From assembly GCA_029263415.1 (NCBI GenBank), contig JAJCXN010000028.1, forward strand, positions 1-64,000: a stretch of 64,000 nucleotides of DNA, written 5' to 3'. Origin of the DNA: Acidobacteriota bacterium. GTDB lineage: Bacteria; Acidobacteriota; Thermoanaerobaculia; Multivoradales; Multivoraceae. The notes beneath the pieces were generated by a model. The model was given only the letters and a program-made list of their open reading frames with translations. It was not told the origin of the DNA and did no database searches. Every line of letters starts with the position of its first letter. Position 1 is the stretch's first letter. A program made the translations under genes and the position numbers. This document shows positions 6,328-27,335 of this stretch, in pieces.

Positions 6328-7491
6328 CTAGAGAACCGGTAGCCGGCGCCCCGCCTCTGACTTGCGATCGGCCAACTCTGACGACTCAACCTTGCTCGCG
6401 CCGCTAAGTCCCTGGTAGGCCTCAAGGATGATCGCACCGCGCCTGCGGGAGCTGTCGTAAATCTTAAGCGGGTCACCCGAACGCGTATGTGCCAGTCCTG
6501 GACAGAACGACATGTACTGACCACGGTCGCCCTCGCCGTCGATCAATACCGCTGCTTCGGCGGTAGTCCGACGAATCTCGTCCAACTCGGAACGGTCCTT
6601 CCAGATATCGATGATCGACCGTTCATGCAGGTTGCCGATCGATCGCCGCCACTGAACACACGGAAAGACGTCACCAAAAGGATCGATGGCGATGCCGGTG
6701 GAGCCCGCGCCACAGTGCTTGCGCTGCTGAGTGGGGCCTGCCGGCGCGGCCTTCATCAGGTCCGCGTCTTGTCTGCCGATGGTGGCTGGCTGCGGTGCAG
6801 CAGGACCCTCGAAGGCAAACTCTCTGGCCCGCTGTGCTTGAAACTCGTACAGACCGCGGATGCCTTCTTGGGTCGGAGAAATATCGAGCGGTTCAATATC
6901 CCCGTCGTCTCGCGGAGTGACCTCCGGATCGATCTGCAACTGACACTGCAACCGATCTGCAATCTCGAAGATCTGCTCGACCTCGTGTTCATTCCACCGG
7001 GTCAGGGTGCAGTTGATCTTCACCTTTAGTCCCAAGGAACGCCATTCGGCGATGTTTTTCAGCAGTCGCTCAAAGCTTCCTGGCACTCTGGTCTGGCGGT
7101 CATGAGTTGACGCAATGCCGCCGTGCAGGCTGGTGTCGATCATGAAGGGATCGATCTCATCAGCCACTCGCCGAGCTATCTCGCCTCTGAGGGCGTGGCC
7201 ATTCGACTTGATACGCACCATGAAGTTGCGCGCGCGCGCATAGGCGCCGATGGCAAAGAAGTCGGGATGCGACAGCGGCTCGCCACCGCTCAAGATGAGG
7301 TTCATCACCCCCATCTGTTCGAGGTCATCGAAGAAACTCTTGTACTGCTCCACCGAGAGCGCTCGGCCTTTGAGCGACAGGTCGTTGTAGCAGAAGTAGC
7401 AGTCTAGGTTGCAGCGATAGGTCAGCTCCACCAGAGCCGACAGCAACTGATCTTCGACCAGGGCGCGCTGCTTGATCTGACCGTAATTCAA
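6328..7491 (-). CDS. Radical SAM/SPASM domain protein
   Basis: Radical S-adenosylmethionine enzyme of the peptide-modification type. C27, C31 and C34 form the CxxxCxxC that binds the 4Fe-4S cluster and SAM, and SGGEPLSHP follows near 67-75. A C-terminal SPASM-like region has cysteines near 259, 278 and 330 (KHCGAGSTG, FPCVQW, SFCPGLA), consistent with auxiliary clusters. The start is a TTG whose last two bases lie inside the stop codon of the PqqD-like gene upstream, so translation is probably coupled. SPASM proteins beside a PqqD-like protein usually modify a ribosomal peptide, but no precursor was found here. A role in modifying a protein or sugar of the exopolysaccharide system is equally open. 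Last gene of the minus-strand operon. Confidence 0.9.
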   Translation of the reverse strand: MNYGQIKQRALVEDQLLSALVELTYRCNLDCYFCYNDLSLKGRALSVEQYKSFFDDLEQMGVMNLILSGGEPLSHPDFFAIGAYARARNFMVRIKSNGHALRGEIARRVADEIDPFMIDTSLHGGIASTHDRQTRVPGSFERLLKNIAEWRSLGLKVKINCTLTRWNEHEVEQIFEIADRLQCQLQIDPEVTPRDDGDIEPLDISPTQEGIRGLYEFQAQRAREFAFEGPAAPQPATIGRQDADLMKAAPAGPTQQRKHCGAGSTGIAIDPFGDVFPCVQWRRSIGNLHERSIIDIWKDRSELDEIRRTTAEAAVLIDGEGDRGQYMSFCPGLAHTRSGDPLKIYDSSRRRGAIILEAYQGLSGASKVESSELADRKSEAGRRLPVL

Positions 7492-7829
7492 GGTTGACTT
7501 AACTCCTCGTTGCCGAGCGGTGGTGCAGCGCGGACTTCCAAGACGCCAGCCGCAACCAACTCGCCGATGAAAGCGCTCACGTCGTTCCGGAGTTGATCCT
7601 TTGTTGCATCAAACTCTGCACTCAGATCATCAACGATCTCGCCCACCGAACGTTTCTGCGCGACGAGCTCGAGAATTCGAATCCCAACGGTGTTCAGCAC
7701 GAGCACCTCGGCAGCACGCTGGCGAACCACAACACCCTCTTCAAACACCGTTCGGAAGCGCACGTCGCTCGCGATCGAGTGCGCAACGATCGCCTGAGGG
7801 GATCGGTGCTTTGATAGATCAGTGTTCAT
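7488..7829 (-). CDS. PqqD-like protein of an HprK-related system
   Basis: Small protein of about 113 residues resembling PqqD and the RRE fold: an N-terminal beta region (FEEGVVVRQRAAEVLVLN), then helices with the typical GIRILELV and SVGEIVDDLSAEFDA segments. PqqD proteins bind a peptide leader and present it to a radical SAM enzyme. The ATG at 7829 overlaps the stop of the HprK-like gene as ATGA, which fixes the start; its stop overlaps the radical SAM start. It matches my memory of families defined around HprK-related kinases, which pair a PqqD-like protein with such a kinase. That assignment is from memory and pattern, without a search. The client molecule is unknown. Confidence 0.85.
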   Translation of the reverse strand: MNTDLSKHRSPQAIVAHSIASDVRFRTVFEEGVVVRQRAAEVLVLNTVGIRILELVAQKRSVGEIVDDLSAEFDATKDQLRNDVSAFIGELVAAGVLEVRAAPPLGNEELSQP

Positions 7830-8812
7830 GATGGTGTCTTCAGTTCCGCCTGCCCAAGAGATAGCAGATCCCAAAACCCAGCATCTTGGCGGAACAACAG
7901 TCTATGGCCTCCGATTGAGGCGACCAAACGCAACAACACTTCAAGCAAGCGGTCCATTCGATGTTCGTCGCTGTTCACAAACGGGGAGTTGGCCAGCAGC
8001 AGGGCCAGGGTGTCCGAAGGAGCCAGCGGCTCAAGCCCATGCTTTTCGGCTTGGACCAGTCGGTAGATGCCCACGAGGGGAAACTTTCCTTCGCTCAGAC
8101 GCTCGTTACCGAAGTCGCCAGCAAAGGGAACCTGGTCCACCGCAAAGCTGTTGCCTTCGGCCCGGTGGGGCACCAGTGTGTTGATGTCATCACTTAGAAC
8201 TTGGTGACCAGCATCTGCCGACAGCTGCGAGAGCGTCGACTTTCCAGCGCCTGAGTGACCGACGAACACACGAGCCCCATCACAGTTCGCGACCGCCGCA
8301 CTGTGCAGCATCACCCCGCCCCGCCCCAGCAGCCGGTAGCTGAGAACAACCCGCAAGAAGTTCTCCAGAACGCCGATGCTCAGACTCTCGCTCTCAAACG
8401 TCCACAGCGCAGCCCGTGTCACACGATCAACAAACACCGCTGACTCACTCGTCTCGCTCGGTGCGGCTCTGTCGAATTCGACAATGCCTAGAAAGTCCAC
8501 AGCTGCCATCCGCACACGCTGGGGCTGATGGTCGAAGTCCATCCAGTAGGTCCAACCGGCCACATCAAAGGTGGTGAACTCTTCCTTGGCGATCGGAAAC
8601 ACTCGAATCTCCACATCTCCTTTGCCCGGCTCACGCAGCCGGGTAGGGAAGCGCTGCTCCACCGACGCCCGCTGCAGATGATTGAGCCCTACCAAGCGAT
8701 AGCGATCGCCCGCGAGCTCGATTGAGACCTGCGCCTCACCGAACGGCTCGCCGGCAATACGCCCAGGAAAGAAATCTGGAGTGCGCAAAAATTTCGACGC
8801 AAACGCGGTCAT
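7826..8812 (-). CDS. HprK-related P-loop kinase
   Basis: 328 residues with a C-terminal HPr-kinase/PEP-carboxykinase-like fold: Walker A GHSGAGKST at about 184-192, followed by VLSDDINTLV near 206, where the acidic pair should bind magnesium. The N-terminal 150 residues are beta-rich and do not resemble the HprK sensor domain. No HPr protein is encoded nearby, so this is probably not a sugar-PTS regulator; it may phosphorylate a carrier or an unknown small substrate. The ATG overlaps the stop of the S24/S26-like gene by four bases, and its own stop overlaps the PqqD-like start. Related kinases elsewhere occur with a PqqD-like protein and a large nucleotidyltransferase; the latter is found here at 26253. 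Confidence 0.87.
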   Translation of the reverse strand: MTAFASKFLRTPDFFPGRIAGEPFGEAQVSIELAGDRYRLVGLNHLQRASVEQRFPTRLREPGKGDVEIRVFPIAKEEFTTFDVAGWTYWMDFDHQPQRVRMAAVDFLGIVEFDRAAPSETSESAVFVDRVTRAALWTFESESLSIGVLENFLRVVLSYRLLGRGGVMLHSAAVANCDGARVFVGHSGAGKSTLSQLSADAGHQVLSDDINTLVPHRAEGNSFAVDQVPFAGDFGNERLSEGKFPLVGIYRLVQAEKHGLEPLAPSDTLALLLANSPFVNSDEHRMDRLLEVLLRLVASIGGHRLLFRQDAGFWDLLSLGQAELKTPS

Positions 8813-9297
8813 CGCTTCGCTCTGTCATCAGAACTGCCAAAGGAGCGACGAATGCGGCGGCCCAGCGTGCGCACAGCGTATTTCGCTCCCCACCCCAAGG
8901 CATAGAGTCTCTGAGCTGGACCGACGTGAACAGGCGTAAAGCCCTCTCCATCGAGCGTTCGAACACCGTTCACCACACCCAACACGTCGCCCAGCGGGAC
9001 TTCGGCATCAAACCCTTCGCCGTCATCAGGTCGGGTAACAGCGAGTCGGTGCCAGCGCCCAACTCGGTCGCGCCAAGGGCGAGTTCCGAGATAGCGATGG
9101 ACGACCAGGCTGCCGTCTTTGCGCACCAGAGCGACGATGTCGCCAGGTCGTGATCTCCGAGGTTCCACCTCGACCTGCCAACCATGCTCCAGCACCGGGG
9201 CCATGCAATTGCCGTTCACTTGGACCACCACACGATCGCCCCGCAACATGTCAGCGACTGCGCGGCGTCTTTCAAGGTGTTCGTCACTGATTCGCAC
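8809..9297 (-). CDS. S24/S26 signal-peptidase-like protein with Cys at the catalytic Ser position
   Basis: About 162 residues with a signal-peptidase/LexA-like beta fold. The box that normally reads GxSMxP is G29-N-C31-M-A-P34, so the nucleophile position is Cys. RPGDIVALVRKDGSLVVHRYLG follows, in which His67 stands where signal peptidases have the Lys base. There is no N-terminal membrane anchor, and a basic region plus possible C-terminal amphipathic helix ends the protein. Either it is a non-peptidase relative or it uses altered chemistry. The GTG at 9297 was chosen for an upstream GAGG; an ATG at 9249 is the alternative. It overlaps the ligase gene by 14 bases and the kinase gene by four, inside the radical SAM operon. 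Confidence 0.75.
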   Translation of the reverse strand: MRISDEHLERRRAVADMLRGDRVVVQVNGNCMAPVLEHGWQVEVEPRRSRPGDIVALVRKDGSLVVHRYLGTRPWRDRVGRWHRLAVTRPDDGEGFDAEVPLGDVLGVVNGVRTLDGEGFTPVHVGPAQRLYALGWGAKYAVRTLGRRIRRSFGSSDDRAKR

Positions 9298-11227
9298 GCG
9301 GTCGGCCTCGTCTCGAGCGGGCTGCCGGAAAATGCCCCATGACCTCATCGCGCACGCTATCGAACTCGCCCCGGTCGAGTACCCGGCGGCGCAGCCGATC
9401 AAGGCGAACGCCCCGCACCAGCATGGCCACCGCCTCATCACGCCGGCCCAGTTGCAACAAGGCCCGGCCCATGTTGAAAATTGTCTCAGGTCTAGGAGCG
9501 ATGTCCAACGACTTTTGGTACCACGGCTCCGCCAACTCAGGCTCTCGGAGTAGGAGATGGTAGCCGGCGATCGCCAACGGGATGCGTTCATCCCACGGCG
9601 TTGACTCGCCGGCACGTTCGAGCGGCGCCAACAGCGACTTCAACACAGTCGGATAGACACGACCTTGCTGCGCCATCGAGGTGGCCGTTGATTCAGCCAA
9701 CAGCAACATTGAAGACGCGCGAAGTCGCCGCTGCGACACAGCCATCGACCACATGAGAAGCATCAGCGCCACCGCAACTCCCGCCCACCGTGGCCCACTC
9801 CAAGACCCAGGCCCCGCCACCTTCTCTGCGTTTGGCGCCTCGGCGATCTCAGCCTTCTGGCCACCCAGCATCGCCGCAATCAGCAAGACCCATGGGTAGG
9901 CCAACAACGCCGTTCGGAACGGGAAGTAGGTCGCGCATGCAGTCACCAGAGCCAGTAGCAGCGCAATGACCAGCGATCGCTCAAGCCGCACCTCGAAGTC
10001 CGACTCGCGCTCATCCACGCTCGTCGCCGGCGACTCAAAATAGTGCGACCGTATGGTCTTGGCTGCAACAAAAAGGCAAGCCAGCAACACGAGCATGCCC
10101 AGCCAACCGGTTTCTGCACTCCACTCCAGGAACTCGTTGTGGGCATTGGAGAAGGTCGACTTGCCAACGTGGCGTTGAAAGAAGCTCCCGCCCGCTTCCA
10201 CAAGGGCCTCCTTCGCCGGCGTGAACTCGGCGATGAAACCACCGAACCCAATTCCCAAGACCGGCCTCTCCTGCAGCATGTAGGCTGCAGCTTTCCAACC
10301 GTCGGTACGCCCTGTCGTCAGCTCATCGATCTGCCCTTGGACCAGGAACCCGCCCTTCTCCTTAACGCGACCGCCAAGCGGGGACAGCAATACCCCAACG
10401 AGCAGCACCACGGCTGCTACCACCAACCCAACTCGCACCTTGCGGCTGATCGGAGCGCTCAAGCACTGCACCATCGCGCACAGCACCACAGCACCAATTG
10501 CGGTCGCTGTCTCTGTCGCAAGAATCCCGGCGATCAAGAGCAACCCTGTTACGACCCAGAATCCGAGGGCCCTCCTAGAACCACCAGTCGCGACCCGGCG
10601 CAAGCTCCGATGAATGCACACGCTCACCGGCAGCGACATGAACATGGCCGCTTCGCCGACATTGCCGATCAAGCCCGTCATCTGAATCCGCTCTAAAGAC
10701 ACGCTGAGGTCGAATGGTCGCCACAGATCGAACCGTTGCAAGAGAACTAGTACCGCGGTGACCACGCCCGGCAGAAGCGTCCACCCCAGGACCCGCTCGA
10801 CCTTCAGCGATCTGGTGCCCCACGCCAACATCACAATGAGCGCAGCTCCAAAGTTCCAAAGAGCAATGCGACCATGCATCGGATGCGGCCCAAGCAACGC
10901 TGAGAGCGCCGCTATGCCAAACAAGGGCCCCGCGATGAGGAGCAGCGTCCTTGATTTGCGCCACTCCAAAAGGCCAGCAGACGACAAACCCAGTAACCCC
11001 ACTGACAACAGCATCAGAGCCTCAGCCACTGCCAGTTTCGGTAGCCGAAACTCGTCAGCGATACCCGGCAGCACGACCAACGAAGGCAGCAGGAGACCGA
11101 GAGCCGCGCACCAAGTCGCCAACCGCTCAAACGACAATCGACGCACCAAGGATCGCTTGCGCTTTGCGCCCGAACGAGCCCGGCGCTGCTTGCCGCTTGG
11201 TCCCTTTTTTCTGCGCTTCTTGACCAC
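9284..11227 (-). CDS. O-antigen ligase/polymerase family protein with C-terminal TPR
   Basis: 647 residues. A strongly basic N-terminus (about 30 residues) precedes roughly twelve membrane helices with the periplasmic Wzy_C/WaaL region (GIGFGGF, NAHNEFLEWSAETG near 330-400). The periplasmic or C-terminal tail (about 520-647) has TPR-like helices, for example AEPWYQKSLDIAP and FNMGRALLQLGRRDEAV. Such proteins polymerise repeat units, ligate glycan to lipid A core, or glycosylate proteins; sequence alone does not separate these. Start is GTG. It lies 67 bases after the VanZ-like gene and overlaps the S24/S26-like gene downstream, so it is the entry to the tightly overlapping radical SAM block. 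One of three such proteins in this locus. Confidence 0.88.
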   Translation of the reverse strand: MVKKRRKKGPSGKQRRARSGAKRKRSLVRRLSFERLATWCAALGLLLPSLVVLPGIADEFRLPKLAVAEALMLLSVGLLGLSSAGLLEWRKSRTLLLIAGPLFGIAALSALLGPHPMHGRIALWNFGAALIVMLAWGTRSLKVERVLGWTLLPGVVTAVLVLLQRFDLWRPFDLSVSLERIQMTGLIGNVGEAAMFMSLPVSVCIHRSLRRVATGGSRRALGFWVVTGLLLIAGILATETATAIGAVVLCAMVQCLSAPISRKVRVGLVVAAVVLLVGVLLSPLGGRVKEKGGFLVQGQIDELTTGRTDGWKAAAYMLQERPVLGIGFGGFIAEFTPAKEALVEAGGSFFQRHVGKSTFSNAHNEFLEWSAETGWLGMLVLLACLFVAAKTIRSHYFESPATSVDERESDFEVRLERSLVIALLLALVTACATYFPFRTALLAYPWVLLIAAMLGGQKAEIAEAPNAEKVAGPGSWSGPRWAGVAVALMLLMWSMAVSQRRLRASSMLLLAESTATSMAQQGRVYPTVLKSLLAPLERAGESTPWDERIPLAIAGYHLLLREPELAEPWYQKSLDIAPRPETIFNMGRALLQLGRRDEAVAMLVRGVRLDRLRRRVLDRGEFDSVRDEVMGHFPAARSRRGRPRANQ

Positions 11228-25185: not shown

Positions 25186-26256
25186 ATGCCTCACGACCCG
25201 AAACCAGGATTGCTGCTCGTAGGTAACCACTTGTCCAGGCGTGGCCGAGGCCGGACCGTCAGCGAAGACCTCGCAATACGACTCTCCAAACGCGGCTTCC
25301 CCACCTTAACGACCTCAACTCAGCGGATGGTCGCACTTCGCGCGGCCGACATGATGGCGACCTCAGTGCTCACCCGTAGTCGTTACCAACTGGCGATAAT
25401 CGACGTATTCAGCGGGCGCGCCTTTCGCTTCGCTGAAGCGGTGTCCTTCGCTGTCTGCAAGCTGGGCCGGCCGGTGATCTTCATATTGCACGGCGGAGAC
25501 CTGCCACGCTTCGCGACCCTGTTCCCAGAACGCGTGAGGCGTTTGCTGACAAGAGCGGCAGCTGTGACCAGTCCAAGCCAGTACTTGGCCTCACACCTCA
25601 GCGATCTCGGCGACATTCAGGTGATCCCGAACCCGATTGACGCCCGGCGGTTCACCATGCCAGCGGCCGCATCGACCGAGCCTCCGCGCACCGTTGTTTG
25701 GTTGCGAGCGTTTCACAAGATCTACCGGCCATGGGATGCCGTCCATGCTGTAGCCGAGGTACATCGAACGCATCCTCAGATCAACCTCATCATGATCGGA
25801 CCTGACAAGGGGGACGGATCTCTAGCCCGCGTCAAAGGCGCGATCCGCGCCACCGGTGCAGAGAACTATGTGAAGCTCGCCCCGACCGCCATCCCTCACC
25901 AGCAAGTGCCACGGGAACTGCACAAGGGAGATATCTTCCTCAACACCACATCAGTCGACAATGCTCCAGTGTCGGTGCTTGAGGCAATGGCATCGGGGCT
26001 GCCGGTAGTCAGCACTAACGCTGGCGGCTTGCCTTACCTGCTCAAGAACGAGCGAACGGCGCTGCTTACTGAAATCGGAGCGGTGGACCAGCAAGCGGCT
26101 GCGCTACGCCGGATGATCGATGAATCGGCCCTGTTCGATCACCTCCGGGCGAATGGTCGCGCGATGGCGAAAGCCAATGATTGGGACGTGATTCTTCCGA
26201 GATGGACCGCCCTAATCGAGCAGGTCGTTTCCTCGTCCACTACCAGGCCAGCATGA
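25186..26256 (+). CDS. Glycosyltransferase family 4 protein
   Basis: About 356 residues in the GT-B fold of the GT4 family. An N-terminal LLLVGNHLSRRGRGRTVSEDLA region is followed by ILHGGDLPRF, SPSQYLASHL and IPNPIDARRF before the second domain. That domain ends with the nucleotide-sugar site NAPVSVLEAMASGLPVVSTNAGGLPYLL (conserved E near 265). Adds a sugar to the lipid-linked repeat unit on the cytoplasmic face; donor and acceptor are not readable. The ATG at 25186 is preferred; a TTG at 25135 would add 17 poorly conserved residues. The stop overlaps the next start as ATGA. Confidence 0.9.
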   Translation: MPHDPKPGLLLVGNHLSRRGRGRTVSEDLAIRLSKRGFPTLTTSTQRMVALRAADMMATSVLTRSRYQLAIIDVFSGRAFRFAEAVSFAVCKLGRPVIFILHGGDLPRFATLFPERVRRLLTRAAAVTSPSQYLASHLSDLGDIQVIPNPIDARRFTMPAAASTEPPRTVVWLRAFHKIYRPWDAVHAVAEVHRTHPQINLIMIGPDKGDGSLARVKGAIRATGAENYVKLAPTAIPHQQVPRELHKGDIFLNTTSVDNAPVSVLEAMASGLPVVSTNAGGLPYLLKNERTALLTEIGAVDQQAAALRRMIDESALFDHLRANGRAMAKANDWDVILPRWTALIEQVVSSSTTRPA

Positions 26257-27335
26257 TCAGCGGACGCTATTCCTCCGCGTCGGCCACCTCGGAAACCGAC
26301 ACCACTGCGTTGTTGAAAGCCGCGCTGGGCCACGGCCCGACCACAACGATCAAAGCCGGTAGCTGTCAAGGACTCGACACCTTGCTCGCCTATCGATCTC
26401 GGGCACGATCTGAAGAGCCCGCGCTTTCAATCGGTAGCAGAGCCCTACACGACGCTGCAACCTGGTCGGTCGTCGAAGCCACAGCAGAAGCGGTCTCGAC
26501 GTGCCTTACCAAGGCTAGCGAGCCCTATGTTCTGATCAAGGGCGCGGCTCTAGTTGAGGCCTATCCAGAACCGCATCTGCGACCGACCAGCGACCTCGAC
26601 ATCCTGATCGCCCCTGAACAGCTAAACCGCGTGCGAGCAGCACTCGAGGCACACGGATGGCGCGCTGCGGTGACCGGGCGCTTTGCCGAAGCCTATCTAC
26701 GCGAAGAGGGCAGCTGCTGGCAGGCATACCGTCCTGGCGAAGCCGTGCTCGAAGTTCACTTCAGATTCTGGGGCAGCGTTCCTGAGATCTTCACCGAACG
26801 CGTCCTTGCCGGTGCTGCGAAGAACGCTGCTGGCACGCTCGTTCCGTCACCGCTACACAGCCTGATCATCGCCAGCGCTCACCGGTGGCGGCAAGCAACG
26901 CCCCGCCGGGCGGTCGACTTGGTGGATGTGTGTCTTCTGCTCCAAGAACATGGGGCCGACGCTTTTGGAAACCTGGTCCGTGAAACTGAACGAGCAGGGC
27001 AACAGCTGCCAGTTTGCCTCGCAATCTTTGAAGCGGGCCTCGTGCTTTCACAGCCATGGATCGATCAGCTTCTCACCGAACTCAAACCCCAACTCAAGAG
27101 CAGTGAGATCCGCATCTTGCAACGGCTCGAAGGCAGTCGGGCGGACGCCGTTAGTTGGCCAAGCGTGCGGCTCGCGATGCTTTTCGCTAGACGCCCAAGC
27201 CGAGCCGGATGGAGATCGATTCTGCGCCGTGTGTGGCCCCACCCCGGGGTACTGGAGCAACGCACACCAGCCAACCGCTCCTGGTCTATACGTCGACTGA
27301 TTGCACTAGCGCGACTCCTAAGCCGACGGGCCTAG
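26253..27335 (+). CDS. Large nucleotidyltransferase-fold protein (NTP_transf_5 type)
   Basis: About 360 residues with the nucleotidyltransferase signature YVLIKGAALVEAYPE followed by LRPTSDLDILI (about 94-125), where the Asp pair should bind metal. This is the uncharacterised large family that accompanies HprK-related kinases, PqqD-like proteins and asparagine-synthase-like or radical SAM proteins in other genomes, as I recall. Here the kinase, PqqD-like and radical SAM genes lie 17-20 kb away on the other strand, and this gene is instead coupled by ATGA to a glycosyltransferase. It may nucleotidylate a small molecule or carrier. The C-terminal 60 residues are basic. Confidence 0.82.
   Translation: MISGRYSSASATSETDTTALLKAALGHGPTTTIKAGSCQGLDTLLAYRSRARSEEPALSIGSRALHDAATWSVVEATAEAVSTCLTKASEPYVLIKGAALVEAYPEPHLRPTSDLDILIAPEQLNRVRAALEAHGWRAAVTGRFAEAYLREEGSCWQAYRPGEAVLEVHFRFWGSVPEIFTERVLAGAAKNAAGTLVPSPLHSLIIASAHRWRQATPRRAVDLVDVCLLLQEHGADAFGNLVRETERAGQQLPVCLAIFEAGLVLSQPWIDQLLTELKPQLKSSEIRILQRLEGSRADAVSWPSVRLAMLFARRPSRAGWRSILRRVWPHPGVLEQRTPANRSWSIRRLIALARLLSRRA

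Follow-up and report, generated by a model that had tools for sequence, protein, structure and literature searches.

What do the four overlapping genes at positions 6328–9297 of this stretch act on? The stretch (the window; 64,000 nucleotides) belongs to the Acidobacteriota genome G000, which comprises 6.89 Mb in 60 contigs and is 99.2% complete. The four genes encode a PqqD-like protein, a radical SAM/SPASM enzyme, an HprK-like kinase and an S24/S26-like protein. A preliminary description regarded them as a peptide-type modification system whose substrate might be encoded elsewhere or might be part of the exopolysaccharide machinery. We consider it highly probable that the block is a maturation cassette for a ribosomally synthesized and post-translationally modified peptide (RiPP), with its precursor encoded on another contig of the same genome (G000:C9:200158–200376). 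Computation shows which genes make up the set and that they are conserved, that a precursor family exists under coding constraint, and that precursor and cassette are linked or co-occur; the chemistry and role of the system we infer.

The precursor family was found by clustering the open reading frames (ORFs) around the cassette in relatives, where a short ORF adjoins the radical SAM gene. Its product has a leader of the pattern YxxPxIxxxExLExxAxxC and a core with a second Cys and a C-terminal Ser. A model built from ten relatives, the G000 peptide not included, gave one good match in G000 (E 3.5e-11): the C9 gene, which encodes a peptide of 72 amino acids, MPDSKIRTAAMPTHSAQDRAAETTTAQGASRRPYVAPRIVSREPLEAAANICNPAFGGKGDISICFGGTLNS, and has a Shine–Dalgarno sequence, AGGAG, ahead of its ATG. 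A second match in this genome, C54:226756, was dropped (E 0.011, internal stop). The preliminary description had seen no short precursor gene in the block or in the 41 bases that separate the stop of the radical SAM gene (6328) from that of the glycosyltransferase gene (6286); this is confirmed, and neither a pattern search nor the precursor hidden Markov model found one in the whole window. The alternative that it had offered, a substrate encoded elsewhere, agrees with the precursor on contig C9 and with the conserved small ORF beside the cassettes of relatives.

Is the gene unlinked in this lineage or simply absent? In G002 and G003, which are of the same family, cassette and precursor also lie on separate contigs, and the precursor sites of all three genomes have a homologous sigma-54 regulator and an FHA/GAF/SpoIIE gene as neighbours. 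The shared separation indicates that the gene is unlinked, not absent. Furthermore, the precursor family is under strong coding constraint, with pN/pS values of 0.00–0.17 in seven close pairs that we chose and that do not include the G000 peptide. Four precursors had no NCBIfam match of any kind, and three, that of G000 among them, had no Pfam match at E ≤ 0.01.

The precursor follows the cassette across genomes. Among 60 close genomes of the same order, G000 included, a strong HprK-like match (E < 1e-20) was obtained in 18; the precursor (E < 1e-5) was present in 16, all among the 18 with the cassette, and 42 had neither (Fisher 1e-12). Ten of these 16 had supplied the training peptides, and the genomes out of sample are G000, G002, G003, G025, G043 and G049. 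Matches at E 0.007–0.1 were left uncounted, including one in G052 (E 0.0079) that proved to be a natural fusion: a single ORF (L251, ~9551–10009, minus strand) encodes both a PqqD domain and a precursor tail, and HprK and radical SAM genes come after it. In G248, a precursor-like tail lies beside HprK and radical SAM genes. In a wider set, 396 genomes from the phylum, the 60 that have a precursor (E < 1e-3) all fell within the 106 with an HprK-like match (E < 1e-15), an overlap that was read by eye. Separately, a precursor at L234 8183–8383 (minus strand) has a core, CAPSPPAKGNPGFCPQGPISS, closely like the cores of other classes together with a different leader, perhaps through transfer or shuffling of cores.

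The cassette itself also recurs. The 19 other strong loci of the same order include a radical SAM gene in 17, a PqqD gene in 17 and an S24 gene in 11, several of the contigs ending inside the block. Scanning named genomes with the radical SAM alignment, we kept the best 80 of 381 related stretches, equal to 78 loci, of which 17 appear identical to loci of the same-order set and are not independent. The subfamily, defined by a radical SAM score of at least 340 bits, has 58 loci, some in bins labelled Gammaproteobacteria (Competibacter, Sedimenticola, Thiolapillus), Myxococcota and Verrucomicrobiae. Full flanks (no less than 2.5 kb ahead of the radical SAM gene and 600 bases beyond it) are available for 38 of them, and within 2.5 kb of that gene these contain HprK in 34, PqqD in 34, S24 in 21 and the precursor in 32. 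Because its parts recur in the 19 same-order loci and across phyla, the block is not a chance assembly; the four genes do co-occur in both sets, which is what a neighbourhood check was to decide. The small precursor gene tied to the cassette in relatives bears out the idea of a peptide-type modification system, and a short gene-encoded precursor tied to modifying genes is the mark of a RiPP, although the two are unlinked in G000.

Six full-flank loci have no precursor nearby. For L086 and L098, apparently the same as the G003 and G002 loci, it lies on another contig; for L124 it is 9.8 kb away, and for L135 it is beside a second set. L132, apparently G407:C79, has a weak precursor match on another contig of G407, and in L137 no precursor was seen. 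A second HprK–PqqD–radical SAM set was also observed in L043 (14082–16794), beside a second gene for a family C25 peptidase, with identities of 28–29% for HprK and radical SAM and 26% for PqqD.

Could the four enzymes have no dedicated peptide and instead modify some part of the exopolysaccharide machinery, or regulate it? The block has an operon-like overlap with the Wzy/TPR gene, the window locus carries Wza, Wzc and glycosyltransferase-type genes (NCBIfam match TIGR03025), and a Wzy/TPR gene is adjacent in 6 of the 19 other same-order loci. However, 13 of the 19, some cut by contig ends, have no such neighbour, and in 32 of the 38 subfamily loci with full flanks a precursor lies close to the radical SAM gene. 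A substrate within the exopolysaccharide machinery, the other option of the preliminary description, is therefore unlikely.

How would the cassette act on a RiPP precursor? The PqqD-like protein (a RiPP recognition element; PF05402, 4.8e-15; the sole PF05402 match in G000 at E ≤ 0.001) would bind the leader through the YxxPxI motif. In the accessible parts of two papers, a YxxPxL leader motif is conserved in lasso precursors (PMC10368454) and the PqqD-like B1 protein binds the lasso leader (PMC5067487), so the protein should play the same part here. The radical SAM/SPASM enzyme (PF04055, 1.5e-21; PF13186, 1.8e-8), the sole member of its subfamily in G000 at E ≤ 1e-20, would then modify the two-Cys core, whose Cys residues are obvious candidates for its reaction. 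Its CxxxCxxC motif and Cys 260, 278 and 330 are kept in 18 of 18 aligned rows, and its nearest solved structure is PqqE (6c8v, 5.1e-23).

This architecture raises the possibility that the product is a small redox cofactor excised from the precursor, as pyrroloquinoline quinone (PQQ) or mycofactocin is. The discrete PqqD and the SPASM radical SAM enzyme are shared with the PQQ pathway, PqqE is the nearest solved relative, and a mycofactocin maturase is among the best NCBIfam matches below cut-off. On the other hand, the core varies in length and sequence while its two Cys and terminal Ser persist, and one genome can carry several precursors, often with a separate C25 gene ahead of each. The scores are also below the PQQ cut-offs (PqqD 41.3/46 and PqqE 77.7/381.35 bits), the precursor is a different one, and a kinase is present, whereas we know of none in the PQQ and mycofactocin pathways. 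A cofactor is accordingly a very unlikely product.

The S24/S26-like protein is weak by sequence (20 bits against a cut-off of 23.3), and its AlphaFold2 model (pLDDT 90) resembles the LexA C-domain (Z 10.8), SipA (10.6) and LepB (10.2). The predicted fold is thus that of the S24/S26 serine peptidases, LexA and signal peptidase I, and the His in its VHR motif is likewise shared with them; unlike them, it has Cys in place of the Ser nucleophile. In an alignment of 30 of 32 relatives plus the window (31 rows; L087 and L113 dropped), this position is Cys in 27, the window included, and Ser in 4, and the His is invariant. Our guess is that this protein, with its Cys–His pair, may be the leader peptidase that cuts off the leader.

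The HprK-like kinase would phosphorylate the C-terminal Ser. By sequence it is weak (TIGR04352, 2.3e-5), and against solved structures it gave P-loop- and PEPCK-level matches only; in a fold search it matched a PEPCK-type fold (Z 14.7, root-mean-square deviation 4.5 over 262 residues). No HPr kinase was among the 50 fold-search matches listed, which excludes nothing. Its residues H170, G185, G188, G190, K191, S192, D208 and D209 make up the H-G-G-G-K-S-D-D motif of lasso-type peptide kinases, with all eight residues kept at the spacing of BsfK (148-163-166-168-169-170-186-187 there). Over 46 rows (45 of 47 relatives plus the window; L119 and L129 dropped), the counts are H 46, G 45, G 40, G 46, K 46, S/T 28/18, D 46 and D 43.

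Which Ser would the kinase use? We compared 98 precursor rows scoring 20 bits or more over 264 loci; six or more of them duplicate others, cut off at an edge, and the search model itself ends in Ser. The C-terminal residue is Ser in 94, Thr in 2, Ala in 1 and Phe in 1, against a background of Ser at 10.6% of ORF ends in the same loci, and the matched part contains two Cys in 92 of the 98. According to the accessible part of PMC10368454, lasso phosphorylations known before BsfK were all at a C-terminal Ser. The near-constant terminal Ser fits that pattern rather than the Ser3 phosphorylation of BsfK, and phosphorylation of the terminal Ser is likely.

Is the block then a lasso-peptide pathway, or the remnant of one? 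As far as the accessible part of PMC10368454 goes, lasso clusters that include a tailoring kinase (paeninodin/ThcoK type; bsf) share with it a YxxPxL-type leader, a discrete PqqD-like B1 and an HprK-type kinase that has this eight-residue motif, and in the accessible part of PMC4289311 the single HPr kinase passage concerns lasso clusters. However, a radical SAM enzyme stands where the B2 protease would, in place of B2 and of the cyclase, the latter without a search aimed at it, and the core has two Cys. The B2 leader peptidase (PF13471) has no match at E ≤ 0.001 in G000 or in 5 others of the 18 cassette genomes. It does match in 12 of the 18, on the cassette contig in G035:C480:1936–2262 and G027:C95:49015–49362. 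The lack of a match in G000 makes a lasso pathway unlikely there, and overall we consider this explanation extremely improbable. Weak second HprK/PqqD matches beside the cassette at L041 935–2755 and L044 13263–14477 may, given the PF13471 matches in G035 and G027, be lasso clusters next door. By analogy, the RiPP cassette appears to combine a radical SAM enzyme similar to PqqE with a kinase and a recognition element of the lasso type.

Other described systems come no closer. No displayed NCBIfam model reached its cut-off for the four cassette proteins (for radical SAM, among the best 25 of 80 matches), and none did so for nine wider-family proteins. The SynChlorMet cassette (TIGR04248–TIGR04251) has a PqqD-like ScmD, the radical SAM proteins ScmE and ScmF, and ScmC, the best NCBIfam match of the kinase (3.1e-6); the scores are far under cut-off (ScmC 26.7/125, ScmD 25.1/100, ScmE 86.9/400, ScmF 70.9/400 bits), and the present block has only one radical SAM gene. 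The HPr-rel-A system (TIGR04352/TIGR04353) likewise pairs an HprK-related kinase with a PqqD family protein, but the matches are below cut-off (23.6/200 and 19.3/35 bits). In the literature, searchable mostly without subscription papers and preprints, we found no description of the system and no match joining PqqD, radical SAM and HPr kinase, or peptidase C25 with radical SAM. These results agree with the earlier view of a poorly described system outside the characterized peptide pathways.

What might the mature peptide do? The gene of a large secreted protease, the gingipain/PorU-like C25 peptidase, is often a neighbour: of 44 subfamily loci that carry a precursor, 28 have it at most 3 kb from the precursor and 24 at most 300 bases away, and 23 of these 24 are on the precursor's strand with C25 upstream. 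In the Sedimenticola loci L117, L119 and L128, the C25 gene is convergent instead. Each of the two or three precursors in L033, L039 and L045 is preceded by its own C25 gene; in L032 two precursors follow one C25 gene, so the pairing is not strict. Among 18 precursor regions counted of 20 chosen (the other two are the family sites of G002 and G003), HprK is present in 18, radical SAM in 17, PqqD in 17 and C25 in 16, many with C25 downstream of the precursor. Three C25 proteins match PF01364 at 1.5e-55 to 2.6e-69, the His and Cys of family C25 are kept in 25 of 25 aligned, and the nearest solved relatives of one, by sequence, are PorU and Lys-gingipain. In G000, no precursor was seen by eye within ~1.5 kb downstream of the C25 genes on C56, C38 and C15; C39 carries a weaker C25 match. 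No C25 gene was seen by eye in the ORF list around the G000 precursor, where no search was aimed at it. The C25 peptidase at G000:C56:323956–333393 lies within a 4099-residue open frame.

Within the window, the 4-base overlaps between the four genes (8809–8812, 7826–7829 and 7488–7491) and the 14 bases shared by the Wzy/TPR and S24-like genes (9284–9297) are as first described (Table 1). The exopolysaccharide locus holds two O-antigen ligase/polymerase-type proteins (PF04932; 9284–11227 and 15370–16851), and 23737–25107 resembles a third such gene by appearance, without a domain search. It also contains a PF14907 nucleotidyltransferase gene (26181–27335, plus strand, 3.4e-24); this family is present in 17 named-genome cassette loci, and a nucleotidyltransferase gene occurs in the bsf lasso cluster as well, in the accessible part of PMC10368454. 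Among viral contigs, there were two candidate stretches and none was confirmed.

Table 1. Cassette genes and the adjoining exopolysaccharide gene, in window coordinates.
Gene	Coordinates	Strand	Remarks
Radical SAM/SPASM	6328–7491	minus	TTG start
PqqD-like	7488–7829	minus	ATG start; longer mechanical TTG start at 7874
HprK-like kinase	7826–8812	minus	ATG start
S24/S26-like	8809–9297	minus	GTG start
Wzy_C/TPR, exopolysaccharide locus	9284–11227	minus	PF04932 1.6e-17; operon neighbour

Several observations weigh against a RiPP cassette acting on the C9 peptide. Every chemical step of the pathway is proposed. Precursor and cassette are unlinked in G000, and the pairing there consequently rests on the relatives and on each being the sole one found. 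Of ten further precursor regions, six showed no cassette radical SAM gene in the stretch; with the family's radical SAM gene in only four, unlinked precursors are not rare. The cassette genomes G028 and G040 have no precursor at E < 1e-5, their main cassette contigs being 3.8 and 9.1 kb. The genomes are related, 21 of the 60 being one genus with neither element, so the Fisher value overstates the association. BsfK, whose motif the kinase matches, phosphorylates Ser3 and not the C-terminus in the accessible part of PMC10368454. In 17 of the 38 full-flank loci, no S24-like gene was seen close to the one for radical SAM, and another peptidase must serve there.

A broader and distinctly tentative proposal is that these loci, spread across several phyla, represent a new class of RiPP: a two-Cys peptide would be modified by a single radical SAM enzyme and phosphorylated at its C-terminal Ser by a single kinase. 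The mature phosphopeptide might be a dedicated regulator, inhibitor or anchoring partner of the adjacent secreted gingipain/PorU-like C25 peptidase, with one cassette shared; in the window lineage, an exopolysaccharide operon might have taken in the cassette, and the precursor gene might have relocated to a separate site flanked by regulators.

The analysis gives an enzyme block that had been an orphan a named substrate, and with it a pathway that can be tested. If the reading is right, some precursors would bear both a radical SAM modification and a phosphorylated terminal Ser, and the signal-peptidase fold would have a thiol variant that may serve as leader peptidase. Such peptides would be tied to gingipain/PorU-like peptidases in little-studied environmental bacteria.

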